A program made the translations under genes and the position numbers. A stretch of DNA of 39,457 nt from positions 1 to 39,457 of the IMG/VR virus record IMGVR_UViG_3300017917_003502; one strand, given 5' to 3'. Of the stretch, positions 5,495-25,123 are shown in pieces; position 1 is the stretch's first letter; every line of letters starts with the position of its first letter. This DNA comes from a virus. The notes below the pieces were generated by a model, which was not told the DNA's origin, searched no databases, and saw only the letters and a program-made list of their open reading frames with translations.

Positions 5495-8400
5495 ATGGCA
5501 GAATTTAAAATAGATCGCATACGTTTTAGATGGAGAGATAGTTGGTCCGCAGGTGTGGTCTATGTCAAAGACGACATTGTTAGATACGGAGCAAAAGTCT
5601 ATGTGTGTTTGATTGCTCACACTGCCAATACTAATTTTTACGCTGATTTAGATGCTGCTGAATCCAAATGGACTCAGATGATGGACGGTCAAAGTTGGAC
5701 CGGAGATTGGACACCTGATACTTTTTACAAAGTAAATGATCTAGCAAAATTAGGATCGGTAGTATGGAAATGTTTGGAAGGACACACTTCTAACGTTGAT
5801 CCAGAAGATGGATTATCTGGCGATGAGAACAAATGGACAGTGTTTGCTCAAGGTGAAAACTGGAGAGGCGTTTGGCAAACTGACACAGCTTATGAAAAAG
5901 GTGATTTGGTGGTTTATGGAGGAAAATTATATCTTTGTGACATATATCATGTGAGCTCAGGTGCAGTTGACGGACTAGAATTGGATCTGCCCAACTGGCA
6001 TGTGTACACAAGAAGTTTAGATTATAGAATTGAGTGGACCAGTGCTACCAGATACAAACCAGATGATTTGGTCAAATATGGTGGCATAATCTACAGAGTA
6101 GTTACAGGACACACCAGTGCAGAATCCAACACTTTCAGCAATCCTCTTTACACCACTGACAGCAACACAGGCATGGGTGTTAATTTTGTTGTGTACAGAG
6201 AAGGCACCAACTATTATGCTAAATTCACCAACAGAGGAATGGATTTTTCTGCCAGCGAAACCATCACTGTTTCTGGAGCATTGCTGGGTGGAATCACACC
6301 AGACAATGATGCATTGATCACTATCATCAGTGTGGAATCAGATGGAGCAGTGGATGAATATGCTGTGTCAGGAGTGGCAGCAGAAAATCAAGATGGATTG
6401 GAAGCTGACATTGAAAAATTTGAACCAGTCATCAAAGGTATTGAATACCGAGGTGACTACGCACAATACACAAGATACAAAAAAAATGACATTGTAAAAT
6501 ATGGTGGATCCAGTCTTTGGATTTGCATAGACAGCACAGACGAAGGAGTTTTTGCCAACAGTGTTGTGATGGATGAAAGCAAATTTGATATCTGGTTGCC
6601 AGGATTGGGTTACGAAGCTTTGTGGGATGAAAACACTTATTACCAACAAGGTGATGTGGTCATGTATGGCGGATACAGCTATGTGTGTACAGTGTCCAAT
6701 TTAAATATTTTACCCACTGTGGCCAATGACAGCAGCAGTGCTTGGCAATTGATAGTGCCAGGTTATAAATTACGAGGTGATTGGATTGATGATGACAGCA
6801 CAGCAGCTTCTCAATACAAAACAGGAGACGTGGTACGCAGTGGAGGACATCTTTACATTGCGGTGAGAGACAATGCTGGAGTAATTCCATTGGAAACTAC
6901 TCCTTATGATCCAGGCACAGATTCTCCGTATCCATGGCAATTATTGGTCACAGGTACACGTTGGAGAGGACCTTGGTACGAAATTGATCCCATAACAGTA
7001 CAAAATAGATTTTACTATCCTGGTGACGTGGTCACTGTGGCAGGAACCACTTTTGCCTGTGTGGAATATCACGAAGCTGACATATCAGCTGCCAAACCCA
7101 CTTTGGATTTGGAGAGTGAAGCTGTAGGACCTTTATGGGTAAAACTGGCTCAAGGCGGCAATGCCAATGTGTTGGAACATCCAGGAGATATCAAAACTAT
7201 AGGTAATGACAGCGTAACATTTGCTGTTAAAATAGGAACTCCAGGAGAATCTTTACAGATTACCAACAGCATACCTGATTGGAAAGTTTTAGAAAAAACT
7301 AATAAAGTATTCTATGTGTCCCTTGAAGGAATAGATTTGTTAACCAGAGGAACTACTCTACAAACAGCTTTTAGAACTGTCAAGTATGCCTGTGACTTTG
7401 TTAACGCAGACAAACTGAACAGAACACCAGCCACAATTTTTGTTAAAACAGGAATTTACGAAGAAATTTTACCTATCAATGTGCCTTATGACACAGCATT
7501 GGTGGGAGACGAATTACGAAGTACCATCATAAGACCCGCAGAAGGTTATGAAGGATCTGACATGTTCTATGTAAACAACGGCACAGGCATAAGAAACATG
7601 ACTTTGCAAGGACTGTATGGCACCCTTGGACCACTCAATCAATATTTGACCAAAAGACCCACTGGCGGAGCATTTGTTTCATTGAATCCTGGAAACTCTC
7701 CTTCAGATAATACTGCTTGGATCACTACCAAATCTCCATACATTCAAAACGTGACCACATTTGGTGATGGATGTATAGGATTGAAAGTGGATGGAGATCT
7801 ACACAACGGTGGTAACAAATCAGTGGTGGCTAACGATTTCACTCAGGTACTTTCAGATGGTATTGGATTTTGGGTTAACGGTGAAGGAAAATCAGAGTTG
7901 GTTTCAGTGTTCACTTATTACTGTCACATAGGATATTTGGCCACAGATGGTGGTAAAGTACGTGCTACCAATGGTAACAACTCCTATGGAGATTATGGAT
8001 CAGTGGCTGAAGGATTCTCATTGGTAGAATCACCAATCACTGCTCAAATTGATAACCGCACAGGTGAAGCCACAGTTAATTCAGTGTACAATGACGAAAA
8101 CCAAATCTATTGTTTTGGATATTCTCACACAGGTCAAGATTATACCAGTGCCACAGTGAGTATCTCAGGATCAGGAGCAGGAGCTGCAGCATACATAGGA
8201 TATGATAATACTAGATATCAATCCATCAGTGAAGTTAGATTGATAGATCCATTTGACAGTGGATTTGTTGGAGGATTAGCATACACTGCCATTGAAGGAA
8301 ACTCCAGAGGTGGAAATACCACATCATTGCTATTGGCCAACCAATATGAACCAGAATATGAAAAAACATTCACAGGTACCACAGCGACCACCAATGTGTT

Positions 8401-10873
8401 GAGCATTCAAAATGCCACAAGCATGCAGGTCAATGACAGAATTATTTTTGTGGGCACTACTTTTGGAAACATATTGCCTGACACAGTGTACTATGTGAAA
8501 GAAATAGTCACACAAAACACCATTAGAGTGAGTTTATCATTGGGTGGACCCACAGTTTCATTGACCACAGCCACTGGCTCAGCATATTTTGTATCAGCTG
8601 AATTGATTGGTCAAAGAATTCAAATATTAGAAGGAACTGGCCGAGGACAATTTGCTGTGATAGATTATTATGACCATGTGCTGAAACAAGTGAACGTGAT
8701 TAGACAGTTTGATGGATTGCCTGGATGGGAACATCTATTGGGAGGATTTGCCATAGAATCTGTGTTGGATGAATCAACCAAATACATCATTGAACCTTTG
8801 GTAACTTTCAGTGATCCACCATATTCTGTCAGCACAGTAACTTTGGGATCCAGTGCCATTTGGTCTGTGGTTGGATCAGCTCGATTGAGTGGTCAGAACA
8901 TCACAGTGGTTTTGAGCAGTTCAGGTGGCTATTACACCACTGATGGAACTTTGTGGACTCCATGCACAGGATTAGCCGCTGTAAACTATTTTGCCACAGC
9001 CAGAAGCAGCACAGCAATATTGGCCATTTCAGGCAGTGCTATATCCAGAACCACCACAGGTGCAGTTTGGACAGGTTTGGCTTCACCGTCATTGTATGGC
9101 ACTTATACTTCTATTGCTTGTGAACAGGATGTTTTTATCATCACCACCAATCAAGGATATGTGTTGAGATCTTCAGACAACGGCTCATCTTGGACTGCAG
9201 TGTCTGTGGTTCCATATGATGGTTCCACTGTGGCTCTTTCACATTCAGCTGGAGGTTCAGGTTTATTCATAGTGTGCAACAATGCTGGTCAAACCTATGA
9301 AAGTTCTAGTTTGGGTTCAACATGGTATCAAGGACCAGACATTGGAGGTCCAGGTTTTAATGTACAAGATTTAGTGTATGGTAATAATAGATTTGTGGCG
9401 GCCTGCAACGATGCTCCTGGAGATTCCAGCACCTTAGCAAATAGATTTTACTACACACTGGCCAATCAAGCCACTGTGGATTCTTCAGCAACCACAGTGT
9501 GGCAAGCCAGTGAATTACCCCCAGACTCAGAACAATATTTCTTAGGTTATACACAAGGAGTTTTTGTGGCTATCACTCCCAGCGGCGACATGGCTGAAAG
9601 TATTGATGGTAAACACTGGAAAGTATTAGGCACACAACTTCCCACAGGTGGTGGTAATTACACACAAATTTCTGGAGGTTCCATCAATGGTCCATTGTTC
9701 ATACCATTATTAGACATATCTACCAATCAATTGAGAGTGATAAGATATGGAGCTAGAGCATTGGGTAGAGCAAGAAGTGCCAGCGGAAGATTAAGTTTAA
9801 TCGAATTGATTGAACCAGGCAGTGGATATTCTGTAGCACCATCCATAACCATAGTGGATAATTCCAACACTGTAGATGCAATATTTGATGTGAGAACCAA
9901 CAATGGCACAGTGTCTCAGCCCACATTTACCAACAGAGGTACAGGTTTCTTGAACGTGGCAGCCACCATATCAGGCGATGGTTTGAAAGATCAGTATCAA
10001 ACAGGAAAATATTTAAGAATTAAAAATTTAAGCAGATTGCCAGGACCTGGAGATAACGTTTATTTTGATAATATACCTGATGAAATATTCAAATTGGCCA
10101 ATTTCACACAATTGGGTGGCACTGAACCTAATTTGTATGGAACTTTAAGAATAGCTCCAGGATTGGACACATATTTCTCACCAGACCACGAAGAGAACAT
10201 CACCATAAGACAAAATTACAGTCAGGTTCGATTGACTGGTCACGATTTCTTAGACATAGGCACTGGTAATAAAACCACAACCAATTATCCAGATTTATAT
10301 AAATTTGGATTCACAGCAGGCTACGAACCACAACAATTCAACGAAGTGGTAGAGTCTGGCGGTGGTAGAGTATTCTACACCAGCACTGACCAAGATGGTA
10401 ACTTCCGAGTGGGAGAACAATTCAAAGTGGAACAAAGCACTGGTATTGTGACACTGAGCGCCGACTTTTTCCAATTGGAAGGTTTGACTGAATTAAGATT
10501 GGGCGGTGTGGTATTGGGAGGATCAGGAGCCGTTATTAGAGAATTCAGCACAGATGTTACCATGGCAGCCAACAGCGATAATGTGGTGCCTACTCAAAAA
10601 GCCGTTGTGGCGTATGTGGCCAGCAGGATATCTGGTGGTGGAGCCAATCTTAACGTTTCAGTTTTACGAGCAGGTGCTGTACAAATAGCCAATGACACCA
10701 TAATAAATGTGGGAGATGAGACCATACAGTTCAAATCAACCGCTAATTTTAAACAAGGAGTCAAAGGATCCATGGCTGCTTTGAGTTATTTTTTGGGTGG
10801 TGTGGCTTCCACAGAGCTTAACGAAGGCGATGCTGTGAGTGTAATAGACCTCAGCAATGGATATGGTAGTTAG
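5495..10873 (+). CDS. Giant adhesin: CBM-like repeats, beta-helix, beta-propeller
   Basis: 1792 residues. Residues about 1-558 hold eight repeats of the type W...W...Y..GD.V.YGG..Y.C...HTS....W, resembling small chitin/cellulose-binding modules (CBM5/12-like); the fourth is interrupted by a Gly-rich insert. Residues about 600-855 are a pectate-lyase-like beta-helix (TVKYACDF, KTGIYEE, GDELRSTIIRP, VANDFTQ.LSDGIGFW, VRATNGNNSYGD). A dispersed beta module follows (about 957-1034), then repeats of the YGNNRFVAACND and S.DG..W type that suggest a beta-propeller (about 1109-1390). The C-terminus has GHDFLDIGTGN and STDQDGNFRVG motifs shared with the next giant gene. No lyase active site was identified. 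Probably a host-receptor-binding fibre or spike. The start MAEFK..RIRF matches its paralogue. Confidence 0.85.
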   Translation: MAEFKIDRIRFRWRDSWSAGVVYVKDDIVRYGAKVYVCLIAHTANTNFYADLDAAESKWTQMMDGQSWTGDWTPDTFYKVNDLAKLGSVVWKCLEGHTSNVDPEDGLSGDENKWTVFAQGENWRGVWQTDTAYEKGDLVVYGGKLYLCDIYHVSSGAVDGLELDLPNWHVYTRSLDYRIEWTSATRYKPDDLVKYGGIIYRVVTGHTSAESNTFSNPLYTTDSNTGMGVNFVVYREGTNYYAKFTNRGMDFSASETITVSGALLGGITPDNDALITIISVESDGAVDEYAVSGVAAENQDGLEADIEKFEPVIKGIEYRGDYAQYTRYKKNDIVKYGGSSLWICIDSTDEGVFANSVVMDESKFDIWLPGLGYEALWDENTYYQQGDVVMYGGYSYVCTVSNLNILPTVANDSSSAWQLIVPGYKLRGDWIDDDSTAASQYKTGDVVRSGGHLYIAVRDNAGVIPLETTPYDPGTDSPYPWQLLVTGTRWRGPWYEIDPITVQNRFYYPGDVVTVAGTTFACVEYHEADISAAKPTLDLESEAVGPLWVKLAQGGNANVLEHPGDIKTIGNDSVTFAVKIGTPGESLQITNSIPDWKVLEKTNKVFYVSLEGIDLLTRGTTLQTAFRTVKYACDFVNADKLNRTPATIFVKTGIYEEILPINVPYDTALVGDELRSTIIRPAEGYEGSDMFYVNNGTGIRNMTLQGLYGTLGPLNQYLTKRPTGGAFVSLNPGNSPSDNTAWITTKSPYIQNVTTFGDGCIGLKVDGDLHNGGNKSVVANDFTQVLSDGIGFWVNGEGKSELVSVFTYYCHIGYLATDGGKVRATNGNNSYGDYGSVAEGFSLVESPITAQIDNRTGEATVNSVYNDENQIYCFGYSHTGQDYTSATVSISGSGAGAAAYIGYDNTRYQSISEVRLIDPFDSGFVGGLAYTAIEGNSRGGNTTSLLLANQYEPEYEKTFTGTTATTNVLSIQNATSMQVNDRIIFVGTTFGNILPDTVYYVKEIVTQNTIRVSLSLGGPTVSLTTATGSAYFVSAELIGQRIQILEGTGRGQFAVIDYYDHVLKQVNVIRQFDGLPGWEHLLGGFAIESVLDESTKYIIEPLVTFSDPPYSVSTVTLGSSAIWSVVGSARLSGQNITVVLSSSGGYYTTDGTLWTPCTGLAAVNYFATARSSTAILAISGSAISRTTTGAVWTGLASPSLYGTYTSIACEQDVFIITTNQGYVLRSSDNGSSWTAVSVVPYDGSTVALSHSAGGSGLFIVCNNAGQTYESSSLGSTWYQGPDIGGPGFNVQDLVYGNNRFVAACNDAPGDSSTLANRFYYTLANQATVDSSATTVWQASELPPDSEQYFLGYTQGVFVAITPSGDMAESIDGKHWKVLGTQLPTGGGNYTQISGGSINGPLFIPLLDISTNQLRVIRYGARALGRARSASGRLSLIELIEPGSGYSVAPSITIVDNSNTVDAIFDVRTNNGTVSQPTFTNRGTGFLNVAATISGDGLKDQYQTGKYLRIKNLSRLPGPGDNVYFDNIPDEIFKLANFTQLGGTEPNLYGTLRIAPGLDTYFSPDHEENITIRQNYSQVRLTGHDFLDIGTGNKTTTNYPDLYKFGFTAGYEPQQFNEVVESGGGRVFYTSTDQDGNFRVGEQFKVEQSTGIVTLSADFFQLEGLTELRLGGVVLGGSGAVIREFSTDVTMAANSDNVVPTQKAVVAYVASRISGGGANLNVSVLRAGAVQIANDTIINVGDETIQFKSTANFKQGVKGSMAALSYFLGGVASTELNEGDAVSVIDLSNGYGS

Positions 10874-10909: not shown

Positions 10910-13900
10910 ATGGCAGAGTTTAAATTAGGTAGGATTAGGTTTATTTGGAAGGGAGCCTGGCTTACCGCGATTGAATATTTGATTGATGATGTGATCAGAT
11001 ATGGTGGTCGTACCTATATTTGTGTAGTAGCTCATACCAGCGGCACTTTCCAAACAGATTTAGATGCTTCAAAATGGAACCTGATGAGTGATGGTCAGGA
11101 ATGGAAAGACAACTGGCAAACCAACACAACTTACAAACCCAATGACATTGTCAAGTATGGAGGATATTTGTATATCTGCAACGAAGGTCACACGTCAGCT
11201 GCCACAGTCACAGATGGTTTGGAAGATGATCAAAGCAAATGGGATTTATTTTCAGAAGGATTCGATTACAAATCAGATTGGACAATATCTACCAGATATA
11301 AAATAAATGATCTTGTAAAATACGGAGCATACATTTACACTTGTATAGCTCCTCATACTTCAGCTGCCACTTTGGCATTGGGATTAGAAGACAATCTTGC
11401 AGATTGGGAAATTTTTTCCAAAGGATTCAATTGGTTGAATGCTTGGACTGTGTCGACCAGATATGTTCGAGGAGATGTGGTTCGTTATGGTGGTCAACTG
11501 TATGTTTGTAACACCGGACACACTTCCAATGCTTCTGCAACTACACTAGGTGGTGGACTGGAAGCAGATCAAGGCAAATGGGATTACTTACACAAAGGTA
11601 TTGAATACAAAAATGATTGGACCGGTTCTACCAGATACAAAGTCAATGACGTTGTAAAATGGGGACCAAGTTTATGGATTTGTACCACCTATCACGTTTC
11701 CACAACCACTCTCACAGCAGATCAAGCCAACTGGTCAATATTTTTACCAGGTTTAGAATTTGAAGATTCATGGAGTTCAGTGACCAATTATCAAATTGGT
11801 GATTTTGTCACTTATGGTGGATACGGTTATGTGGCCAAAACCAACAACACAAATAAAAATCCTAACACTTACGTAGGAACTGATTGGGATTTATTCATCA
11901 CAGGATTCAATCTTCAAGGTGACTACAACAATGCCACTGCTTACAAAACAGGCGATGTGGTACGTGTGGGAGGTTTCACTTATATTTGTATAGATGACAG
12001 CACCGGCAATCGTCCACCCAATGCTACCTACTGGGATAAACTCAACGAAGGAATTTATTGGAAAGGCAACTGGGCCAATGCCACTCTGTATGACAAAGGT
12101 GATGTGGTTCGAGGAACTATCAATGCCAACAACACATATATTTGTATTTTAGGTCACACTTCAAACAATATTGGACCTGCCACAATCACACAACCAGATT
12201 ATCCACCAGGTCCTGGTGTTGATACAGGCACATACTGGCAATTGTTGTCTGGTGGAGCTGAAAGCACAGCACTAAGTACTCAAGGAGATCTTTTAATCTA
12301 CGGACCTTCTGGACCAGTAAGATTGCCCATTGGACTTTCAGGACAAACACTTTTAGTAAATTCAGCAGGTACTTTACCAGAATGGGGTTACTTTGGAAAA
12401 ATTAACAACGTATGGTACGTAGCTCCATCAGGAGTGGATGCTCCTGCTCCAGACTACGGAGCCACTTTGAATCAACCTTGGAAAACCATTCAATACGCTT
12501 GTCGTCAGATTGAAAACGGTCCATTGTATCCAAAATCTAGAAATTTATTGTTGAGAAACAAAGCATTCATTCAGAGAGAAACCATAGCATACATCAATGC
12601 CACTTTCCAAACCACTTGTACCAACACAACCATCACAACAAATGTGATCACTTGCACCAGCACTGCTAATCTTCGCACAGGAATGAAAGTAGAATTCACA
12701 GGAACCACATTTGGCAATATCAACACTGGAACCACTTATTATGTGTTGCCAGGAAAAACTGCCACCACTTTCAAAGTGAGTTTGACTCCAAACGGATCAC
12801 AAGTGGTGCTTAACACAGCTTCAGGCACAATGACAGTGAAATTATTGTACAATCAAACCAAATGTCAAAGAGATTTGGGTCAAATTATTGATGCAGTGCA
12901 TTGGGATTTGGGTCACGGCGGCAATGAAAAAACTAGATTGGCAGCTGTCAGCTATTACACTGGCAGTGGCTTGTACATTCCTGGAGAAGAATCAGAAACC
13001 AGTGCTGCTATAGAATTTTCAAAAACTGTGATAGATGCTGCTATTTCCAATGACACTGGATATGTGGCATTGCAAGGCACAGTACCTCAAGTGATTGATG
13101 CCACAATAGTGGAAGAACTCACAGCTCAAACTTTAATAGAAAGTTTGATGGACATAGTGATTGATGCTATAAATGCAGGTGATATTGATGATGTGCCACG
13201 TGAAATTATTGCCAACAATTGCGTTTTTGTTAAAACAGGAATCTACGAAGAATTTTTACCAATCAGCGTGAGAGAAAACACAGCAATTGTGGGAGATGAA
13301 TTGAGAAGCACCAATATTAGACCTGCTCCGCAAATTGTGGATCCATCAGACACTCCTTACACATTGTACTCTATTAATAGATTAAAAAATATCATCAGCA
13401 ATGTGATACGAAACATTGCTATCACACCTACACCTGCTGGATATGTTACTGGAACAACTTTACCACCACAAGATACCAACAGAACAGCAGGCACATACAC
13501 CAATGTGGCTACCACTACCAGTGGAGCTGGCACAGGTGCGACCTTCAATGCCACAGTGAATGCCACAGGATTTGTGACTGTGTTGACAGTTAATTCATCA
13601 GGATCAGGTTATGCAGTGGGTAACACAATCACTATAGGTGCAGGCCTATTGGGTGGATCCAGTTTAGCAGCAACTTTCACAGTGACATCTGTGGGAGCTG
13701 GCACAGTGGCTCTGGCAGGAGCTCAAGATACCAATGCTCCAGCAGGTTCAGCACCAGCTGGCACAGCAGCACAAAACATAGTGGAAGACATTTATGATTA
13801 TATCAATTACACCGTGATAGGTGACAGTTCTAGTCCATTGCCTACCATGAGTGGTAGTAACACACCAGAAACAGCAGTGGGTTACACAGATGCTGTGTTG

Positions 13901-16900
13901 AGATTGATTGAAAACAAAGAATTTTTAACACAAGAAGTTGTTGAATACACCAGAAAAAATAATCCTGGAGCATTTATCACTTACTTCACAGACACATTAA
14001 GAGCGTTTTGTGAAAGAGATGTGAGAGAATATATTGATGCTGTGTGTTGGGACTTGATATACACTGGAAACTACAAATCATTGGTAGCAGCCAAATATTA
14101 TGTGGTGGCAGTGACAGGCAGCGAAGAATCAGACATGTTCTACATGAGAAATGGAACAGGATTGAGAAACTGCACACTGCAAGGGTTGAATGGTACATTG
14201 GGCACACCAAATGGCTACGGAACAAGAAGACCGTCAGCAGGAGCCTATGTGTCATTGGATCCAGGTTGGGGACCAGCACACGAAGCTGTTTGGATTGAAA
14301 ACAAATCACCTTATGTGCAGAACGTTTCAACATTTGGAACAGGATGCGTGGGACTAAAAGTGGACGGTGCATTACACAATGGTGGAAATGACTCCGTTGT
14401 GGCCAACGATTTCACACAAATTTTATCAGACGGTATTGGATTCTGGGTGACCAATTTGGGAAGATCAGAGTTGGTTTCGGTGTTCACGTACTACAACCAC
14501 ATTGGATATCTGGCAGAAAACGGCGGTAAAGTAAGAGCCACCAATGGTAACAACTCATATGGAGATTTTGGATCAGTGTCTGAAGGTGGAGATGTTGCTG
14601 AAACGCCAATCACTGCCACAGTGGACAACAAGAGCACAGATGCCACTGTGGGATTCACATTCACAGATGGCGACAGAATTTTAGCTCTGGAATACACCAA
14701 TGCTGGTACTGATTACAGTGCCAATGCAGTGTTCACAATATCTGGAGACGGATTTGGCATCACTGGTGTTACTCCTACTATTCGCACTGGTGGAGTGAGT
14801 GAAATAAGATTGAATGAAACTGTAACATCTCCTGAGAGCAACTATGGTGGTGATGGATACAGTTCAGCCAGCAACGTGGCACAGAATGGAACAGATAAAA
14901 CCATAACTATTTCCAACACTGACACAGCATTGGCCAGTTCATTGACAGGATTAGCGATATGGATCACTGAAGGATTGGGTGCTGGTCAATATGGCTATGT
15001 GGTAGGATTCAACGCAGGTACCAAAGCTACCAAAGTGGCCAGACCTTCGTTCACATCATTCACAGTCACAGCTGCCACAGCATCAAATGATAGATTCACT
15101 TGTGCTGACAGCAGCACATTGGATGTCAACATGCCAATCATGTTCAGTGGCACAGCATTTGGTGGAGTAACCACCACAGCCACCAATCCAACCATCTACT
15201 ATGTGTTGAGCAAACCCACTGCAACTACATTTACCATATCCACATCACCAGGTGGAGCCACATTTGATATTTCAGCTAATGACACAGGCACGATGACGCT
15301 GCACAAAGCTGGTTGGGATCATTTGGTCAATACCACTTGTACTGCTACCACTGTTACCACAGATGAAATCACTTGTGCTTCCACTTCAGGACTTTACAGT
15401 GGAGCAGCAGTGCAATTTGATGGCACCACATTTGGTAACATCAACAGATACACTCAATATTATGTGTTGAGTTCAGGACTTACAGCAACCAAATTTAAAG
15501 TCAGCACTTCACCAGGTGGATCTCCAGTGACATTGAGCACAGCCACAGGCACCATGACTGTGAGAGTGTGTGAAGCACTGTTGGATGGCACAACCAAATA
15601 TGAATATGCTCCACGTATTATTGTGGATGCTCCACCTTCAGGCATCAGAGCTATTGCTAGAGCAGTGGTCACCACTGAAAAAATATCTTCTATCAGAATT
15701 ATTGAACCAGGTTCAGGCTATGTGTCTGCTCCCAACATTACCATAGTGGATCCAAGCAACACAGTGGAAGCACCATATGAAACATTTATAGCCAACGGAG
15801 TTTTGGGTCAACCTACATTTACCAACAGAGGTTTGGCGTTTGTGACAGCAGTGACCACAGTGGCTGAAACAGGAACTCAAGCCACAATAAGTGGTATAAC
15901 AAATGCTTCACCAGGAGTGGTAACCACTTCGGGAGCTCACTTGTTGAGCAGTGGTGACAAGGTAACATTCGCCAGCGTGGGTGGCATGTTCGAATTGAAC
16001 AATGGTATATGGTATTACATCACAGTGCTTTCTCCAAACACATTTTCTATCTATATAGATTCAGCAAGAACTATTCCATTGGACACAACTGATTTTGGAA
16101 CTTGGATACCATCAGCAGGCACAGTCACAGAATTTGGTGGATTTAGAAACAGCAAGCAGAGCGGAAAATACATTCAAGTGGAAGGATTAACAGATATTCC
16201 TCAAGCAGGAGCCAATGTGGAATTCAGTGCATTGCCAGGCAATTATTACAAACTGGTATCAGTGCAAAATTTCTTAGGCAATGGATATCCTTATTCAGCA
16301 TTATTACAAGTGAGCCCAGAAATAGGAGTGGGAGAAGCTCCTGCTCACGGTGGCACAGTCACAATAAAAATAAGATATTCACAGATTAGATTGACAGGTC
16401 ATGATTTCTTGGACATTGGTACCGGTAGTTTCACTGAAACCAATTACCCAGGCATACCTTTACAAAATCCAGATCCAGACAACGAAACAGTGGAATCAGG
16501 TGGAGGACGTGTGTTCTTTACCAGCACCGACCAAGATGGTAACTTCCGAGTGGGAGATTTATTCTCGGTGGAACAAAGCACGGGTGTGGCCACATTGAAT
16601 GCTGATGCGTTCAACATTTCAGGATTACAAGAACTTCAGTTGGGAGAATTAGTATTGGGAGGCACCAGTGCTTCTATCAATGAATTCTCAACAGATGGTA
16701 CAATGGCAGCCAACAGTGACCAAATTGTGCCCACCCAAAGAGCGATTAGAACATATATAGCTAGTCAGATCGGTGGTGGAGCCAGCAGTTTGAACGTGAA
16801 CCAGATCACTGCAGGTTTAATTACAATATATGCTTCGACCATTGAAACCACCACTGGAGTAACAATAAACTTTGATGCCCCTGTGAATTTCACAAGAGGT

Positions 16901-16945
16901 GTTAACGGAGGCCCATTAGCATTAGGGTACTTCCTACAAGGTTAA
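10910..16945 (+). CDS. Giant adhesin: CBM-like repeats and beta-helix with inserts
   Basis: 2011 residues, paralogue of the 1792-residue gene directly upstream. Eight CBM5/12-like repeats (about residues 5-450) precede a beta-helix (from VWYVAPSGVD, about residue 500). Relative to the paralogue, the helix is broken by two large inserts, between IENG and NNCVFVKTGIYEE (about 12520-13210) and between IRPAP and EESDMFYM (about 13335-14120). Both carry a CERDV..YIDAV.WDL-type module. Three copies of a TTFGNI..YYVL..TATTFKVS-type module follow (residues about 563-646, 1383-1469 and 1474-1554). The C-terminus has GHDFLDIGTG and STDQDGNFRVGDLF. There is no propeller here, unlike the paralogue. Likely a second receptor-binding virion protein. 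AAGGA lies upstream of the ATG. Confidence 0.85.
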   Translation: MAEFKLGRIRFIWKGAWLTAIEYLIDDVIRYGGRTYICVVAHTSGTFQTDLDASKWNLMSDGQEWKDNWQTNTTYKPNDIVKYGGYLYICNEGHTSAATVTDGLEDDQSKWDLFSEGFDYKSDWTISTRYKINDLVKYGAYIYTCIAPHTSAATLALGLEDNLADWEIFSKGFNWLNAWTVSTRYVRGDVVRYGGQLYVCNTGHTSNASATTLGGGLEADQGKWDYLHKGIEYKNDWTGSTRYKVNDVVKWGPSLWICTTYHVSTTTLTADQANWSIFLPGLEFEDSWSSVTNYQIGDFVTYGGYGYVAKTNNTNKNPNTYVGTDWDLFITGFNLQGDYNNATAYKTGDVVRVGGFTYICIDDSTGNRPPNATYWDKLNEGIYWKGNWANATLYDKGDVVRGTINANNTYICILGHTSNNIGPATITQPDYPPGPGVDTGTYWQLLSGGAESTALSTQGDLLIYGPSGPVRLPIGLSGQTLLVNSAGTLPEWGYFGKINNVWYVAPSGVDAPAPDYGATLNQPWKTIQYACRQIENGPLYPKSRNLLLRNKAFIQRETIAYINATFQTTCTNTTITTNVITCTSTANLRTGMKVEFTGTTFGNINTGTTYYVLPGKTATTFKVSLTPNGSQVVLNTASGTMTVKLLYNQTKCQRDLGQIIDAVHWDLGHGGNEKTRLAAVSYYTGSGLYIPGEESETSAAIEFSKTVIDAAISNDTGYVALQGTVPQVIDATIVEELTAQTLIESLMDIVIDAINAGDIDDVPREIIANNCVFVKTGIYEEFLPISVRENTAIVGDELRSTNIRPAPQIVDPSDTPYTLYSINRLKNIISNVIRNIAITPTPAGYVTGTTLPPQDTNRTAGTYTNVATTTSGAGTGATFNATVNATGFVTVLTVNSSGSGYAVGNTITIGAGLLGGSSLAATFTVTSVGAGTVALAGAQDTNAPAGSAPAGTAAQNIVEDIYDYINYTVIGDSSSPLPTMSGSNTPETAVGYTDAVLRLIENKEFLTQEVVEYTRKNNPGAFITYFTDTLRAFCERDVREYIDAVCWDLIYTGNYKSLVAAKYYVVAVTGSEESDMFYMRNGTGLRNCTLQGLNGTLGTPNGYGTRRPSAGAYVSLDPGWGPAHEAVWIENKSPYVQNVSTFGTGCVGLKVDGALHNGGNDSVVANDFTQILSDGIGFWVTNLGRSELVSVFTYYNHIGYLAENGGKVRATNGNNSYGDFGSVSEGGDVAETPITATVDNKSTDATVGFTFTDGDRILALEYTNAGTDYSANAVFTISGDGFGITGVTPTIRTGGVSEIRLNETVTSPESNYGGDGYSSASNVAQNGTDKTITISNTDTALASSLTGLAIWITEGLGAGQYGYVVGFNAGTKATKVARPSFTSFTVTAATASNDRFTCADSSTLDVNMPIMFSGTAFGGVTTTATNPTIYYVLSKPTATTFTISTSPGGATFDISANDTGTMTLHKAGWDHLVNTTCTATTVTTDEITCASTSGLYSGAAVQFDGTTFGNINRYTQYYVLSSGLTATKFKVSTSPGGSPVTLSTATGTMTVRVCEALLDGTTKYEYAPRIIVDAPPSGIRAIARAVVTTEKISSIRIIEPGSGYVSAPNITIVDPSNTVEAPYETFIANGVLGQPTFTNRGLAFVTAVTTVAETGTQATISGITNASPGVVTTSGAHLLSSGDKVTFASVGGMFELNNGIWYYITVLSPNTFSIYIDSARTIPLDTTDFGTWIPSAGTVTEFGGFRNSKQSGKYIQVEGLTDIPQAGANVEFSALPGNYYKLVSVQNFLGNGYPYSALLQVSPEIGVGEAPAHGGTVTIKIRYSQIRLTGHDFLDIGTGSFTETNYPGIPLQNPDPDNETVESGGGRVFFTSTDQDGNFRVGDLFSVEQSTGVATLNADAFNISGLQELQLGELVLGGTSASINEFSTDGTMAANSDQIVPTQRAIRTYIASQIGGGASSLNVNQITAGLITIYASTIETTTGVTINFDAPVNFTRGVNGGPLALGYFLQG

Positions 16946-17711: not shown

Positions 17712-18695
17712 ATGGCAAGTTTAAAAAGTCTTATACCAACAAAAAACAATAACTTTCCACAAGTTACAGAGACCAATATTGAGTCTGGACAAATTTACAT
17801 GTATCAGAGTGGTCCTAACTTTGATGCTTTCTATCACGGTATCTGTTTTAAACCTTGCAGATCAGGCACAGCCATAGTAGAAATTTGGGGTGCTGGTGGT
17901 TCATCAGCACAGATGTGTTGCTGTGGATTTGGTACTCCAGGCAATCCAGGAGCTTATTCAAGAAGAACTGTGTCATTAACTTGTTGCGGATACATCTGTG
18001 GCCAGATAGGTATGGCCTGCAACAACTCTTCAGCACTGTGTTTCAGAGGTTGTTCAGATCCCACAGGTGTAACTTACTATCCCAATGGAACAGCCACTGG
18101 TCAAGGATGTATGTGTGCTCAAGGTGGTAGAGGTGGAATTTCTTATTGCAGCACAGGTACCAATGCTTACTGTTGTTTTGTGGCAGGTGGATTTTATCAC
18201 ACTTTGGGTGTGAATGGTAACTGCGGAATTATTTGTAACAAATGTTGTTCAGGTGGATGGTGTGCTCAAGCATACGGTGGAACAATCAACTGTGCAGGTG
18301 GATTCAGTTGTGTGAGTTTTTTAGGAGATTCAGGATCATCTTGTCCTTGTTCAACGCATTTTCACATGCAAGGTCCTCCAGGATATTTTTCCAAATGTGG
18401 TGTGGTCGCCAGCTTCAATCATGATGACAGTAATGGTTTTGCCAACTGGTCAGGTCAAGGCCGAGGTCAGTATGTGAATGCATTGGCAGCAGCCAGTAGA
18501 TGGCCACAGATGGGAATTCAATTTGCCACTTGTTGGGGATTTTCAGGCAACTGCGGATGTTATGAAAATGAAGGTTGTCAAATGTTATATCCACCAGGAT
18601 TTCCAGCACCAGGACCACATCCATGTCCAGGAGTGAGAGATCATGCCAGCAGAGGTGGTAACGGAGCAATCAGAATCAAATGGATACAGGATTAA
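17712..18695 (+). CDS. Cys/Gly-rich tail-fibre-like protein 1 (327 aa)
   Basis: 327 residues with 31 cysteines by my count, about one in ten. The frame is set by the EIWGAGGS motif, which resembles the glycine-rich domain of phage fibres and adhesins, but many places where glycine would be expected hold cysteine (MCCCGFG, GCMCAQGG, YCCF, NCGIIC, CPC, NCGCYE.EGC). It ends PCPGVRDHASRGGNGAIRIK. No signal peptide or membrane segment was seen. No strong ribosome site precedes the ATG; GAAAG is the best candidate. Likely a virion adhesin or tip in which Cys forms disulfides or binds metal; neither can be shown from sequence. First of three tandem paralogues. Confidence 0.75.
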   Translation: MASLKSLIPTKNNNFPQVTETNIESGQIYMYQSGPNFDAFYHGICFKPCRSGTAIVEIWGAGGSSAQMCCCGFGTPGNPGAYSRRTVSLTCCGYICGQIGMACNNSSALCFRGCSDPTGVTYYPNGTATGQGCMCAQGGRGGISYCSTGTNAYCCFVAGGFYHTLGVNGNCGIICNKCCSGGWCAQAYGGTINCAGGFSCVSFLGDSGSSCPCSTHFHMQGPPGYFSKCGVVASFNHDDSNGFANWSGQGRGQYVNALAAASRWPQMGIQFATCWGFSGNCGCYENEGCQMLYPPGFPAPGPHPCPGVRDHASRGGNGAIRIKWIQD

Positions 18696-18698
18696 AAT

Positions 18699-19697
18699 AT
18701 GCCAACACTTAGATCAGTATTAGAAACAAGATTAGATTTTCAATTGTCAGGATTAGAACAAAATCTTGAAGAAGGACGTATTTGGGTATACAATCCAGGC
18801 ACTGGAGTTGGAACCAACTTCTGTTGCGGAGTTTGTTGGAGATCACCAGGCACAGGCACAGCAGTGATTGAAATTTGGGGTGCTGGTGGATCTGGAGCAA
18901 AAATGTGCTGTTGTGGATACGGATTACCAGGCAATCCAGGAGCTTATTCAAGCAAAACAGTTTCAGTCACAGTGGGTTGTTGTATCAGAGGCAACGTGGG
19001 ACTATCCTGCGGTAACTCAGACGATTTATGTTACAGAGGCAGATCAGAAAGCACAGGAATCTGTTGGCAAGGCAATGGTACCACAGGTTGTATGTGTGCT
19101 GAAGGAGGTCAAGGCGGATTCAGTTATTGTTCAACCACACCTTCTGCTTACTGTTGTTTTTTAGCCAATGGTTTTTGTACCACCAGATGTGCTGGCGACA
19201 ACTGCGGTATAGTGTGCAATTACAGAGGACCAGGTTGTGCCATTCACCAAGCTCAAGCGTTTGGTGGAGACTGCAACATAGCTGGAGGATTCAGCTGTGT
19301 GAGTTTCTTTGGTTGCCTCCCAAGTTGTCCTTGTGCATTCTGGTATCACATGAGAACTCCACCCAAACAATATGCAGATTGTGGAGCATGGATCACTTAT
19401 ACCAATGACACAGACAATGGAGCTTACAACTGGAGCGGTGGATCAGTTTATGGATATATTCATACTTTGGGATTGGCCAGTAGAAATCCCACACACGGCG
19501 GACACTACAGTGCTTGTTGGACTGGAAACAGATATTGCGGATGTTACAACATGAACGGATGTTTGACATTTGTGCCACCAGCTCATGGTGGACCACCTCC
19601 GCATCCATGTCCGGATGTGAGAGATCATGCTTATCGTGGAGGTCACGGTATCATAAGGATTAAATACACAGGAACAGGAATATTGGGGTTAAACTAA
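18699..19697 (+). CDS. Cys/Gly-rich tail-fibre-like protein 2 (332 aa)
   Basis: 332 residues, 32 cysteines. It keeps the same cysteine grid as its neighbours: KMCCCGYGLPGN, TTGCMCAEGG, YCCF, DNCGIVCN, SCPC, YCGCYNMNGC, and the ending CPDVRDH..RGG.G.IRIK. Sequence between the cysteines differs much more, so the scaffold is conserved while loops vary. The gap from the preceding gene is 3 bases, and its AGGA (18688-18691) lies within that gene's last codons, so translation is probably coupled. Function as for the first copy: probable host-contact virion protein. Confidence 0.75.
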   Translation: MPTLRSVLETRLDFQLSGLEQNLEEGRIWVYNPGTGVGTNFCCGVCWRSPGTGTAVIEIWGAGGSGAKMCCCGYGLPGNPGAYSSKTVSVTVGCCIRGNVGLSCGNSDDLCYRGRSESTGICWQGNGTTGCMCAEGGQGGFSYCSTTPSAYCCFLANGFCTTRCAGDNCGIVCNYRGPGCAIHQAQAFGGDCNIAGGFSCVSFFGCLPSCPCAFWYHMRTPPKQYADCGAWITYTNDTDNGAYNWSGGSVYGYIHTLGLASRNPTHGGHYSACWTGNRYCGCYNMNGCLTFVPPAHGGPPPHPCPDVRDHAYRGGHGIIRIKYTGTGILGLN

Positions 19698-20659
19698 TGC
19701 CAGGATTAAAAAGTATATTAAGCAGCAAAGTGACCTATGAGATCACTGAGAATAATTTAGAACAAGGCGTGATTTACGCTTTTAGCCCAGGAACATTTTA
19801 CACTCAATTCTGTAATGGTTTCTGTTGGAAACCACCTGCCAATGGTTGTGCCATCATAGAAATATGGGGTGCAGGAGGTCCAGGTGCTCGTATGTGTTGT
19901 TGCGGTTCAGGACTGCCAGGCAATGCTGGAGGATATTCTAGAAAATCTATCAGTGTGACCACAGCCAACTTTGTGTGTGGTTGTGTGGGATTCCCTCCTT
20001 ATTCTCACAGTTTATGTTTTCAAGGTTGCGGTGATCCCAGCACAGTGTGTTGGACCAGCAGTACTTCTAATGGATGTATGTGTGCTAGAGGCGGCAAAGG
20101 TGGTATATCTATGTGCAGTACCGGCACCAGCATGTTCTGTTGCTTTGTTAACCAAGGATTTTGTTACTTTGGACCTATCAATGACAACTGCGGTATAATT
20201 TGTAATCATTGTTCAGGCGCTTGGGAAGCATTGGCCTATGGAGGAGACATCAACTGTTGCGGTATTATTGGATGCTCTTCATTCTTGGGCTGTCAACCCA
20301 CATGTCCATGTCAATTCTATCATCATGCTCCACTGCCTGCTTATATGTTTTCAGAAAGAGGTTCAAGAGTCACATTCAACACCACTGACGGTGGAATACA
20401 CACATCAGGCATGTCAGGATCGCAATTGCCTCCATATTTTTCAGCATTGGCTGGGATGAACAAACAACCTATCAGAGGTTCATTCAACAGTTATTGTTGG
20501 AGATCAGACAGAAGCTGCGGATGTTATGAAATGCAAGGATGTTCACCATTCTTACCCATTGGTGCTGGCGGATTACCTCCACAAGCATGTCCAGATGTGA
20601 GAGATCACGGAATCAGAGGCGGTTGGGGTGGCATGCGTATCAGATTTATAGCAAGTTAA
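19697..20659 (+). CDS. Cys/Gly-rich tail-fibre-like protein 3 (320 aa)
   Basis: 320 residues, 31 cysteines. The ATG overlaps the previous stop by one base (TAATG). It has the shared blocks IIEIWGAGGPGARMCCCGSG, NGCMCARGGKGG, FCCF, DNCGIICN, TCPC, SCGCYEMQGC and CPDVRDHGIRGGWGGMRI. Variable stretches sit between residues about 225-280, where the three copies align poorly. It is the last gene of the trio; a late-promoter-like octamer follows for the next gene. Role inferred as a virion surface protein. Confidence 0.75.
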   Translation: MPGLKSILSSKVTYEITENNLEQGVIYAFSPGTFYTQFCNGFCWKPPANGCAIIEIWGAGGPGARMCCCGSGLPGNAGGYSRKSISVTTANFVCGCVGFPPYSHSLCFQGCGDPSTVCWTSSTSNGCMCARGGKGGISMCSTGTSMFCCFVNQGFCYFGPINDNCGIICNHCSGAWEALAYGGDINCCGIIGCSSFLGCQPTCPCQFYHHAPLPAYMFSERGSRVTFNTTDGGIHTSGMSGSQLPPYFSALAGMNKQPIRGSFNSYCWRSDRSCGCYEMQGCSPFLPIGAGGLPPQACPDVRDHGIRGGWGGMRIRFIAS

Positions 20660-21431: not shown

Positions 21432-22373
21432 ATGAATAGATCCAAAGCATTTTTTTTAAACGGCGGCATTGGCAGAATACTCTGTGCTATTCCAGCATTG
21501 GAAAAATATGCTGAAGAATCTGGAGACAAAGATTTTTTGGTAATCTGCGAAGGTGCAGTGGATATCCTAAAAGGTCATCCTATATTGGATCAAAAAACTT
21601 TTGATATTTTTCATAAAAATTTATTTCATTCCAAATTACAATCCAGAGACATTGTCAGTTTAGAACCTTATAGAGTGTGGGAATATTACAATCAAAAGTG
21701 CAATCTATCTCAAGCGTTTGATATTTTAATCAACAACAAAGGAGTTAGAAAATTATCCAAACCCACAGTGATTTTAAGCAAAGAAGAAATTATTCAAGGT
21801 AAAAAAATAATCGATGATATTAAATCAAAAATTAAAAAAGAAAAGACCATTATTTTTCAACCATTTGGCAGAGGCATAGAACACATTGACAATACATTTA
21901 TAGATAAAACAGGTCGCAGTATAGAATACAAAAGCATTAAAAATTTCATAAGAAAATTACAAAAAGAAAATTTTGCTGTAATTTTAATGTCTGAGTTTGG
22001 TTTAGATTTAAAAGATCAAAAATACACTGACGAAGTGGCATTTCCTGAGGGATTAAATCTAAGACAATGGGCTTCAGTGATCAAACACGCTGATCATTTC
22101 TTTGGTTGTGACAGTGTGGGACAACACTTGGCTTATGCCATGGAAACTCCCACCACTGTGGTATTGGGTCCTACATATCCCATCAATACCAGTTATCCTG
22201 ATTGTGAATATTTTAACATAATGGACATGGGTGAAATTGATAGAGAATATGATCCCATAAGGATTACTATGGATGAAAGAATCACTAGAAAAAACGAATT
22301 ACTGATGACTATGAATGAACAAATTGAAGATTTTATTGTGAATGGTATCATGGGAAGAAATAAAAATGACTAA
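21432..22373 (+). CDS. GT9-like glycosyltransferase 1 (313 aa)
   Basis: A GT-B-type enzyme of the glycosyltransferase 9 (LPS heptosyltransferase) kind. The N-terminus has FFLNGGIGRILCAIPALEKYA, the position of the family's nucleotide-binding-loop/LPAL motif. The C-terminal half has ADHFFGCDSVGQHLAYAM....VVLGPTYP, the donor-binding D-S..HLA.A...P.V.LFG pattern. By eye, the catalytic Asp of WaaC-type enzymes (GD in MGDVLHTLPAL) is Arg here. Residues 300-313 overlap the next gene. No Shine-Dalgarno; a palindrome precedes the ATG. Likely transfers a sugar, possibly heptose, to LPS or virion protein. A near-length paralogue lies after the carbamoyltransferase. Confidence 0.75.
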   Translation: MNRSKAFFLNGGIGRILCAIPALEKYAEESGDKDFLVICEGAVDILKGHPILDQKTFDIFHKNLFHSKLQSRDIVSLEPYRVWEYYNQKCNLSQAFDILINNKGVRKLSKPTVILSKEEIIQGKKIIDDIKSKIKKEKTIIFQPFGRGIEHIDNTFIDKTGRSIEYKSIKNFIRKLQKENFAVILMSEFGLDLKDQKYTDEVAFPEGLNLRQWASVIKHADHFFGCDSVGQHLAYAMETPTTVVLGPTYPINTSYPDCEYFNIMDMGEIDREYDPIRITMDERITRKNELLMTMNEQIEDFIVNGIMGRNKND

Positions 22374-24171
22374 AAAACTTTCAGGATACATAGCTGCTAT
22401 CGCTAGAGGACACAATGCAGGAGTGTGTTTATTAAAAGATGGAAAAATTATTTTTTCCATTGAAGAAGAAAGATTAAGCAGGCAAAAATATGATGGCGGG
22501 CCTTTTGCCAGCATGGTAGAAATACTCAAACACACTGATAAGATAGATTATCTAGTGGTTGCTCACACACAAAAACTCAAAGATACTGCAGGCAAAGTGG
22601 ATTTTTCAGGAGATGATGTATATACAGGATTGGCTAGAAAACTAGGATTGATTGATAGACAAGCTGATTCACACAATCATCCTCAGGTGATTGATTTCAG
22701 TCACATACATCACAAATTGCATGCTGCTTGTGCATTTTATCGCAGCGGCTTTGACAGTGCTGTGAGTTTGATAGTGGATGGCGCTGGTACTTTTATTGGA
22801 ATCAACAATAACGTGCAAGGACCTACCACAGTATGGGAAGTGGAATCCATAATTGATTGTGCTTATCCAGCAGATTTTAAATCATTGTACAAACATTACG
22901 GCACCAGAGATCCTGTGCTTGGTGCTGTGTTAAAAAATTTTCCATCAGAGATCACAGACGAAGCCGGCAAGACTCATGAAGCTGTGTTCAGTGATAGAGC
23001 TGGCATTGTGAAAGTTTATGAAGCAGTGACTCAATACTGTGGATTCATGCCCATTGAAGCAGGCAAGACCATGGGATTATTTCCTTATGGCAAACCCAAC
23101 GACAAAATTCCTAAACTGTTTGAAAACAACAGTTTGGTTCCATTGTCCAATAGAAATTTATTTTTACCAACCTATCCTAATGCTGCTTTGGTGAACGCAC
23201 AACTGTTTGAATTTTTAGAAGATCCCATAGACAGTCATTATGATGATGTGACCAAATTACAAAATCGTAGAGATATGGCATACGCTTGTCAGATGGAAAC
23301 ACAAGCACAAGTTTTAAAATTAATTTACAAAGCTGTGGAAATGAGCAAAAAGAAAAAAGTGGTTATATCTGGAGGATATGGCTTAAACTGTGTGGCCAAT
23401 TATTCATATTTGGAACATTTACACAAAGATGGAATAGAATTGTATGTGGAACCAGTGTCCAATGATGCTGGCACAGCTATGGGAGCAGCACTGTTGTTCT
23501 ATCATCAAATATCTGCCAACAAAAATCCTCAAACACAAAATACTCTTTATCTAGGACCAGATAGAAAATACAGCATCAAAGAAATAGAATCTTTGTGTGA
23601 TGATAAATCCATCACATTGAAAGATGCCAACGATATTGAAATCACTGAACTACTGACCAAAAAAAATATTGTGGCTGTGTTCCAAGGCAGATCTGAAAAT
23701 GGTCCAAGAGCTTTGGGAAACAGATCATTATTGTTTGATCCAACTTTTAAAGATGGCAAAGATTTTGTTAACACAGTTAAAAATAGAGAATATTTCAGAC
23801 CTTTTGCTGGAACAATACTCAAAGAACACGTGCATGATTGGTTTGATTTGAGAGGCATGGATGAATCACCACACATGATGTATGCTGTGAACTGTAAAGA
23901 AGGTGTGCATGAAAAAATTCCAGCCATAATTCATGTGGATGGTACTTGCAGAATACAAACAGTTACCAAAGAACAAAATGAAAATTATTACAATTTAATA
24001 AAAACGTTCTACAAAAAAACTGGTATCCCAATAATTTTTAATACTTCCTTCAATCTTGGTGGTGAACCTTTGGTAGAAACTTTAGAAGATGCTGTGCGAA
24101 CTCTTAAAAATTCTAAAATAGAATATCTTTATCTACCCGAATACAAAAAATTAATACACGTTCCTAATTAA
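22366..24171 (+). CDS. NodU/CmcH-family O-carbamoyltransferase (601 aa)
   Basis: Transfers the carbamoyl group from carbamoyl phosphate, with ATP, to a hydroxyl group of a sugar or antibiotic. Visible domains: an N-terminal Kae1-like domain (GHNAG, EEERLSRQK, a HHKLHAA metal-binding His pair, SLIVDGAGT), then VISGGYGLNCVANY and PVSNDAGTAMGAALL, and a C-terminal YrdC/TobZ-like domain (FQGRSENGPRALGNRSLL, REYFRPFAG, HVDGTCRIQTV, IIFNTSFNLGGEPLV). All core motifs are intact. An ATG at 22342 is possible, but 22366 has GGAAG 8 bases upstream and puts the start, MTKKLSGY, at the family N-terminus, overlapping the previous gene by 8 bases. Its place between two GT9-like genes suggests that it carbamoylates the sugar they handle. 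Confidence 0.88.
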   Translation: MTKKLSGYIAAIARGHNAGVCLLKDGKIIFSIEEERLSRQKYDGGPFASMVEILKHTDKIDYLVVAHTQKLKDTAGKVDFSGDDVYTGLARKLGLIDRQADSHNHPQVIDFSHIHHKLHAACAFYRSGFDSAVSLIVDGAGTFIGINNNVQGPTTVWEVESIIDCAYPADFKSLYKHYGTRDPVLGAVLKNFPSEITDEAGKTHEAVFSDRAGIVKVYEAVTQYCGFMPIEAGKTMGLFPYGKPNDKIPKLFENNSLVPLSNRNLFLPTYPNAALVNAQLFEFLEDPIDSHYDDVTKLQNRRDMAYACQMETQAQVLKLIYKAVEMSKKKKVVISGGYGLNCVANYSYLEHLHKDGIELYVEPVSNDAGTAMGAALLFYHQISANKNPQTQNTLYLGPDRKYSIKEIESLCDDKSITLKDANDIEITELLTKKNIVAVFQGRSENGPRALGNRSLLFDPTFKDGKDFVNTVKNREYFRPFAGTILKEHVHDWFDLRGMDESPHMMYAVNCKEGVHEKIPAIIHVDGTCRIQTVTKEQNENYYNLIKTFYKKTGIPIIFNTSFNLGGEPLVETLEDAVRTLKNSKIEYLYLPEYKKLIHVPN

Positions 24172-24172
24172 T

Positions 24173-25123
24173 ATGAACAAAGCATTTTTTATCAACGGTG
24201 GGGCAGGAAGAACGCTGTGTTCTGTGCCAGCACTGGAAAATTACGCCAATGATAATCCCAATGATGATTTTATCATTGTGTGTGAAGGCGGCACTGATTT
24301 TTACAAAGGTCATCCTAAACTACACTTTAGAGCTTATGATGTTTGGCATAAAAATTTATTCAATGAATACTTAAAAGATAGACAGTTGGTAACTCCTGAA
24401 CCATACAGAGTATGGGAATATTACAATCAAAAATGTAATATTGCTCAAGCATATGATATAGAAATCAATAACAAAGGCTTGCGTACTTTGGAAAAACCTA
24501 AAATTTATCTTTCCAAAGAAGAACTCATAATGGCAAGACAGATGATAAAAGAAATCAAAGAAACCACCAAAAAAGAAAAACTGGTTGTGTTTCAACCTTT
24601 TGGAAGAGTATCTAAAAAAGACAATGATAGTTTTGTGGATGTGAGCGGTAGAAGTTTTGAATTAGAAAATATTATGAATTTAATCAGACAGTTGGGCAAA
24701 CAACATGCTGTGATGTTGATGTCAGAATTTCCCATAGATCTCAACAAACATCAGATAAATTTTCCAGTGGCAGTGCCTCAAAACATACATATAAGAATAT
24801 GGTCTGCTGTGATCAAAATGTGTGATCATTTTTTAGGTTGTGATAGTTTGGGACAACATCTGGCCAATGCCTTTGACAAAACAGCCACAGTGGTGTTTGG
24901 TTCCACTTTTCCCATGAATGTTTCTTATCCAGACAATAATAAATTTGATATCATTGACATGAACAAAGACAGCAGAATCTACAGTCCCATTCGTATCACC
25001 ATGGATGAATATGCTGACAGAGCCAATGAAGACGCTATGAAAATGGAAAAAGATGTGGAGAATAGAATTGTGCAGAGTGTGAACAGCATGATCAAAAACG
25101 GCTACAAAAAGAATAAAAAATAA
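24173..25123 (+). CDS. GT9-like glycosyltransferase 2 (316 aa)
   Basis: A full-length paralogue of the product at 21432: NGGAGRTLCSVPALENYA, EPYRVWEYYNQKCNIAQAY, VVFQPFGR, CDHFLGCDSLGQHLANAF and RITMDE all align. Here too the expected catalytic Asp position is Arg. It begins 1 base after the carbamoyltransferase stop without a Shine-Dalgarno site, so it is probably translated by coupling. Conserved blocks outside the GT9 core (Y.VWEYYNQKC, I.NKGLR/VRKL) mark a common subfamily. Donor and acceptor are unknown; heptose is the leading inference from hldE/hldD in the same genome. Confidence 0.75.
   Translation: MNKAFFINGGAGRTLCSVPALENYANDNPNDDFIIVCEGGTDFYKGHPKLHFRAYDVWHKNLFNEYLKDRQLVTPEPYRVWEYYNQKCNIAQAYDIEINNKGLRTLEKPKIYLSKEELIMARQMIKEIKETTKKEKLVVFQPFGRVSKKDNDSFVDVSGRSFELENIMNLIRQLGKQHAVMLMSEFPIDLNKHQINFPVAVPQNIHIRIWSAVIKMCDHFLGCDSLGQHLANAFDKTATVVFGSTFPMNVSYPDNNKFDIIDMNKDSRIYSPIRITMDEYADRANEDAMKMEKDVENRIVQSVNSMIKNGYKKNKK

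Follow-up and report, generated by a model that had tools for sequence, protein, structure and literature searches.

What are three adjacent genes for cysteine- and glycine-rich proteins doing among the tail-fibre genes of a virus? This question is raised by a stretch of viral DNA of 39,457 nucleotides (IMG/VR record IMGVR_UViG_3300017917_003502; hereafter the window, meaning the whole stretch that was analysed), in which paralogs A, B and C lie in tandem (Table 1). An earlier note, made from the sequence alone, had described three tandem open reading frames of about 325 residues with 31-32 cysteines each, CCC, CMC, CPC and CGC clusters within them, and neighbouring structural proteins nearly free of cysteine. 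We found this description to be correct: the lengths and cysteine counts are those given in Table 1, all four clusters are present, and the flanking structural genes have 0-1% cysteine. What the earlier note missed is the strongest feature of the locus, namely that the number of diverged paralogs in a genome is almost fixed at three. We computed the composition, conservation, predicted fold, synteny and copy number of the trio, and the modelled fold makes it likely that its members are cysteine-rich representatives of the TG class (tumour necrosis factor (TNF)-like plus glycine-rich) of tail-fibre-tip adhesins.

Composition and predicted fold of the trio

Cysteine makes up 9.5-9.7% of paralogs A, B and C, as against 0.70% (84 of 11,934 residues) in the 23 other window genes examined; the Poisson probability of such a number of cysteines is about 1e-24 for each protein. 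Glycine accounts for 15.6-17.5%, with no run longer than GG. Pairwise identity among the three proteins is 46-49%, and 20 invariant cysteine columns are common to all of them.

An AlphaFold2 model of paralog B, built with 74 relatives, reached a predicted local distance difference test score (pLDDT) of 78.8 and a predicted template-modelling score of 0.79. Its best match in the PDB is the fibre protein gp24 of cyanophage Pam3 (7YPX; Foldseek E 2.5e-6, probability 1.00), with which VIA-align gave Z 15.0 at 3.0 Å over 196 residues. Next in rank were the tail tip of Bxb1 at Z 11.4 and, at Z 7.5-8.7, the TG domains of ALK and LTK, with unrelated chains at about Z 4. In a library of predicted viral structures (BFVD), the top matches were proteins of S-CAM3 and P-SSM2 and gp38 of Syn9. 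The predicted structure contains the TNF-like beta-sandwich and distal glycine-rich loops of the TG fold. These findings suggest that the trio is a variant of this fold that probably works as other members of the class do, without being a typical one.

Relatives of the trio in phage isolates

At the sequence level, A, B and C match PHROG 4205, a family of unknown function (E 1.3e-6, 4.7e-9 and 1.7e-9, respectively; PHROGs have no curated cut-off). Searching phage isolates with paralog A by tblastn at 1e-5 returned no match. A search with paralog C at a relaxed limit reached the third protein of Synechococcus phage S-CAM1 (3e-4 over 53 residues), and this match opened up the whole family. S-CAM1 has the same gene order, with three cysteine- and glycine-rich proteins of 36, 31 and 25 cysteines, the third of which matches PF21722 (Gly_rich_2) over its full length (5.4e-10; 40.1 bits against a cut-off of 24.3). 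Through this match the family is linked to the glycine-rich fibre domains of phages; PF21722 is matched by 9 of 74 family members. The same three-gene arrangement is present in S-CAM3, and S-SSM7 and Sf-FS3 each carry three copies with 25-30 cysteines apiece.

Hundreds of IMG/VR loci contain members of the family. None of the annotated copies in the phages named here carries a functional name, the labels being "hypothetical protein" or phrog_4205 "unknown function". The earlier note knew of no characterised family with these features, and that statement stands as far as annotation goes; it does not extend to the surroundings of the family, which adjoins a known fold and a known Pfam family, PF21722.

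The number of copies is nearly always three

We found three paralogs in all 65 of the loci first found (in two of these the contig ends within the first copy). Of 17 S-CAM-like loci, 16 have three and the remaining one is cut; of 79 S-SSM7-like loci, 78 have three and the remaining one is a short fragment. These record sets partly overlap and some contigs are near-copies, so that not all locus counts are independent. A further sublineage has one or two genes per locus. There, every contig of sufficient length (7/7) holds a pair and a single gene about 22-23 kb apart; contigs with fewer than three genes are short or end before the expected place of the partner. The single gene and both members of the pair fall in three separate ortholog clades.

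In a tree of 179 members, each of the positions A, B and C has its own ortholog clade inside a lineage, and the paralogs of one lineage are nearer to each other than to those of other lineages; the branches are long and their deep order is uncertain. This topology would fit several triplications, none going beyond three copies, or else gene conversion at an early stage that kept the paralogs alike.

Two contigs from metagenome-assembled genomes labelled marine Euryarchaeota (L108 and L109) also carry three cysteine-rich copies each, one of them cut at the contig end of L108. The simplest reading is that these are binned phage contigs, and the label may reflect a host link.

A mixed fibre tip as the favoured assembly

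We propose that the trio would cap the giant 2011-residue fibre encoded upstream. A short conserved N-terminal segment would dock on the fibre end; beyond it, a TNF-like beta-sandwich would lead into long distal glycine-rich loops with many built-in cysteines, and these loops would contact the host surface. The 218-residue chaperone-like protein encoded downstream would help the trio to fold, and the tip itself would be one A:B:C heterotrimer.

TG and TNF-like modules work as trimers, and in the head of C1q three different chains take up one arrangement, which offers an analogy for an A:B:C tip. We favour the heterotrimer because this fold class works as trimers and three paralogs are retained even where one gene lies apart from the others. 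The assembly of one A:B:C heterotrimer per tip has, in our estimate, about an even chance of being right. More tentatively, we suggest an obligate A:B:C receptor-binding tip with a cysteine lattice, made of inter-chain disulfides or metal, as a module exchanged between cyanophages and jumbo phages. If the tip were obligate in this way, then the three-gene rule would reflect assembly stoichiometry, as do the three chains of C1q. Location in the virion, receptor binding, the heterotrimer and the cysteine chemistry are all features that we infer.

Each paralog could instead form its own homotrimeric adhesin, whether on one fibre or on several, to give three receptor specificities. Pam3 gp24 is a homotrimer, the loops differ among A, B and C, and the window encodes two giant fibres of the same tail-fibre PHROG (5495-10873 and the fibre listed in Table 1). 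However, if the paralogs served several receptors, copy number should vary freely, whereas three copies are kept across several lineages even when the genes are split, and a single chaperone-like gene comes after the trio in the window, as it does in many relatives. We regard three separate homotrimers as possible but doubtful.

Conservation of the cysteines

The earlier note had also claimed that cysteine positions are fixed while the intervening loops differ. Among close relatives (9-11), 81-94% of cysteine positions are invariant, in contrast to 32-45% of residues that are neither cysteine nor glycine, and on this ground the claim holds. In a 74-row alignment of diverse relatives, cysteine likewise has the highest mean conservation of any residue type (0.71; glycine 0.65, tryptophan 0.61).

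The notion of a "conserved cysteine grid" survives in part. Across the window's lineage (145 sequences), about 15 cysteine columns are near-invariant, and for these positions the term is apt; about 43 more cysteine columns come and go, and for them it is not. The near-invariant positions, in paralog B numbering, include three CxC motifs (C131/C133, C210/C212 and C280/C282) and the CCC motif at C70-72, all of which belong to the most constant parts of the proteins. C72, C104, C133, C153, C212 and C273 recur in most distant lineages, and C133 aligned with one cysteine of Syn9 gp38, although cross-lineage alignment is uncertain in the loops. Between 24 and 46 cysteines are found per full-length family protein.

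Observations that weigh against the proposed tip

Several observations count against the reading set out above. With respect to copy number, three is not absolute: P-SSM2-type phages have two copies (36 cysteines each in P-SSM2), as does a single-cell virus contig, and one contig (L240) carries four cysteine-rich paralogs in a row, with 27, 31, 27 and 24 cysteines. With respect to the fold, the structural match comes from one AlphaFold2 model in which residues 1-30 and about 261-290 are less certain, the Foldseek TM scores are modest (0.41/0.53), and the GGGGxGG lattice of polyglycine motifs is missing, there being no GGGG run in A, B or C. Pfam gave no match to A, B or C at E up to 1, PF21722 included, and sequence searches of the PDB matched none of the three. 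In the literature we found no description of these proteins and no virion evidence. Finally, two properties of the cysteines speak against fixed intrachain disulfides throughout: cysteine counts are even in 91 proteins and odd in 88, and co-loss of cysteine pairs is rare, with only five column pairs showing at least two co-changes.

The earlier note had suggested disulfide-locked or metal-bound tips, both of which are hypotheses on the present evidence. The random parity and the rarity of paired loss make it unlikely that every cysteine is locked in a fixed intrachain disulfide. The summed count over one trio is also odd in about half of cases. Because only five column pairs co-changed two or more times, our search for paired cysteine loss in the 145 sequences of the window's lineage yielded no assignable disulfide pairing. 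Inter-chain disulfides, partial pairing, metal sites or free thiols are possible. Phage assembly takes place in the cytoplasm, and disulfides would thus have to form after lysis; in the proposed tip, the cysteines would rigidify the loop lattice once the particle is released into oxic water. That they rigidify the loops through disulfides within or between chains is plausible, with slightly less than an even chance.

Alternatively, the CCC and CxC clusters might bind zinc, copper or iron, either building the fold or carrying iron to the host surface, as in the "Ferrojan horse" idea. The near-invariance of the three CxC motifs and the CCC motif in the window's lineage is in keeping with metal sites, and the rare paired loss of cysteines suits multi-ligand sites better than one-to-one disulfides. 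However, we found no Pfam metal-binding domain in the window proteins or in 74 family members, and the variation in cysteine number noted above does not suit a metal site. We consider metal-loaded tips unlikely, and rate metal binding by the trio's cysteines in general as equally improbable.

Gene neighbourhood and alternative roles

The trio lies within a cassette of fibre genes and sugar-related genes (Table 1). The order from the giant fibre through the 106- and 110-residue proteins, A, B, C and the 218-residue protein to the GT9-like and carbamoyltransferase genes is kept across the window's lineage and largely so in the S-CAM lineage. A homologue of the 110-residue protein forms the end of the large fibre in S-SSM7 and Sf-FS3.

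Table 1. Coordinates of the trio and its neighbours in the window.
Feature	Position	Strand	Observations
Giant tail fibre, 2011 aa, probable tip carrier	10910..16945	+	phrog_9851 tail fiber, 1.7e-213; same place in related cassettes
Conserved small fibre protein, 106 aa	16963..17283	+	phrog_11338 tail fiber protein, 2.2e-7; kept in cassette
Small fibre protein, 110 aa	17330..17662	+	Kept in cassette
Paralog A, Cys/Gly-rich	17712..18695	+	327 aa, 31 Cys; own ortholog clade in tree
Paralog B, Cys/Gly-rich	18699..19697	+	332 aa, 32 Cys; AlphaFold2 model; Pam3 fibre match
Paralog C, Cys/Gly-rich	19697..20659	+	320 aa, 31 Cys; 65 IMG/VR relatives
Probable tail-fibre assembly chaperone, 218 aa	20707..21363	+	Homologs match PF16778; link by iterated profile search
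GT9 (heptosyltransferase)-like protein	21432..22373	+	PF01075, 1.2e-5; phrog_8954; homologs in S-CAM1, S-CAM3, S-SSM7, P-SSM2
Nol-like carbamoyltransferase	22342..24171	+	phrog_1601, 2.4e-169; conserved cassette neighbour

The 218-residue protein itself has no Pfam match. In the family gathered by iterated hidden Markov model search, 19 of 85 members match PF16778 (Phage_tail_APC, a family of tail assembly chaperones), and the S-SSM7 and Sf-FS3 homologs do so above the curated cut-off. Its AlphaFold2 model (pLDDT 97) has a beta domain followed by a C-terminal helical hairpin, the general plan reported for Pam3 gp25. Among PDB folds nothing resembled this model convincingly (best Z 7.0, Foldseek E 0.28), and gp25 was not matched; the assignment therefore rests on sequence profiles, by which the protein is a probable tail-fibre assembly chaperone. 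At some loci (L015, L021 and L026), the chaperone-like gene is present in two copies after the trio.

This neighbourhood bears on a further alternative, that the proteins are structural or decoration proteins of the baseplate or fibre, with cysteines serving cohesion only and no receptor bound. The similar fold in the Bxb1 tail tip would be compatible with such a role. However, the place of the trio, after the giant fibre and before the chaperone-like gene, mirrors that of gp24-gp25 in Pam3, and the loops are the variable part of the proteins. A purely structural role thus appears quite unlikely. The idea that the trio is a pseudogene or an artefact of composition, drifting in tandem repeats, is already refuted by conservation: full-length open frames persist in hundreds of loci, cysteine is the best conserved residue type, and the ortholog clades stay apart. 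We also rejected a role in defence or as a toxin, because there were no supporting matches and the gene neighbourhood is structural; PADLOC, like Rfam, gave no match on the window.

Other genes of the window and of related cassettes deserve mention. Two GT9-like genes and the Nol-like carbamoyltransferase gene lie 3' of the trio (21432-25123), and heptose kinase/adenylyltransferase, nucleotide-sugar epimerase and cupin genes lie at 33004-35460. Related cassettes carry a similar ADP-heptose-type gene set, which may serve to decorate either the fibre tip or the surface of the host. The small cupin (33007-33402, minus strand) is labelled "cysteine dioxygenase" by PHROGs (5.6e-30), and the phage does encode extremely cysteine-rich proteins; the label may mislead, since the cupin sits in the sugar cluster of related cassettes. 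In P-SSM2, S-SSM7, Sf-FS3 and Syn9 (L089, L090, L091 and L094), genes of the 2-oxoglutarate-Fe(II) oxygenase or prolyl-4-hydroxylase type are clustered at the fibre-tip cassette, and hydroxylation of fibre proteins by such enzymes is possible. The N-terminal part of the 2011-residue fibre (10910-12100) contains about eight repeats of a W...Y...D.V.YGG..Y.C-like module that look, by eye, like carbohydrate-binding repeats. Two small phrog_8997 proteins (3314-3772 and 5131-5490) are each encoded immediately 5' of a larger fibre gene and are possibly further fibre-specific accessory proteins.

Source lineage of the window

We also considered whether the window itself is of cyanophage (Kyanoviridae, T4-like) origin and judged this unlikely: in the window's lineage, whose contigs reach 364 kb, psbA was absent from all 12 contigs tested, but it was present in 6 of 6 cyanophage-type records, and the major capsid protein of one lineage contig is nearest to those of Sinorhizobium phage Phosso, Vibrio phage 2.275.O and Pseudomonas PA5oct. 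A tail-sheath-type gene in the window itself points in the same direction. Given the lack of psbA and these capsid and tail-sheath-type affinities, the window most likely belongs to a lineage of jumbo myoviruses that has a fibre-tip module in common with cyanophages.

Implications and comparison with known systems

Phage fibre tips are usually regarded as homotrimers. A mixed, three-faced tip, if true, would change the picture of host-range evolution, since one face would be free to vary with the structure maintained by the other two. The presumed trimer would be synthesised in a reducing cytoplasm and act in oxic water, and its cysteines, about 95 in number, would be an unusual strategy of stabilisation or metal use. 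The family is directly testable, because it is widespread, is present in isolated cyanophages (S-CAM1, S-CAM3, S-SSM7 and P-SSM2) and is annotated there only as hypothetical.

The closest known counterpart is gp24 of Pam3, a fibre protein that forms a trimer and has a TNF-like domain and a tip rich in glycine; it is a proposed receptor binder, is folded by the chaperone gp25 and is reported to resemble S16 gp38 (PMC9608196). The trio resembles gp24 in predicted fold, and in both phages the probable fibre-tip gene or genes precede a gene of chaperone type, a probable one in the window. The two differ in that Pam3 has one gene, a homotrimer and 39% glycine in the glycine-rich domain, whereas the window has three paralogs with 16-17% glycine overall and 9-10% cysteine. 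PF21722 differs from the trio in its glycine runs, which are replaced in the trio by cysteine-bearing loops.

Salmonella phage S16 gp38 likewise provides a glycine-rich tip, on a T4-like long fibre, but it is a single gene with a polyglycine lattice, as against three paralogs lacking GGGG. Its structure, 6F45, was not among the fold matches listed, which does not exclude a likeness to gp38. The earlier note had compared the trio with gp38-type glycine-rich receptor tips; the predicted fold shared with Pam3 gp24, the gene order and the chaperone-like gene downstream support that comparison, whereas the polyglycine lattice is not kept. In Synechococcus phage Syn9, gp36, gp38 and gp39 are also glycine-rich proteins of a tail-fibre gene cluster, but these are ordinary in composition, with 8, 2 and 7 cysteines compared with 31-32 in the window trio; richness in cysteine is thus a trait of some lineages and not of the fold. 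The TG domains of ALK and LTK have the TNF-like plus glycine-rich fold in common with the trio (Z about 8); they belong to animal receptors, and the similarity is one of fold only.

Together, the fold and the tip role of the trio are well supported by computation, and the heterotrimer and the cysteine chemistry are hypotheses. TG-fold tail-fibre adhesins were known before; a cysteine-rich version of them, kept as an almost invariant trio, is new and is a real, strong feature of these phages.

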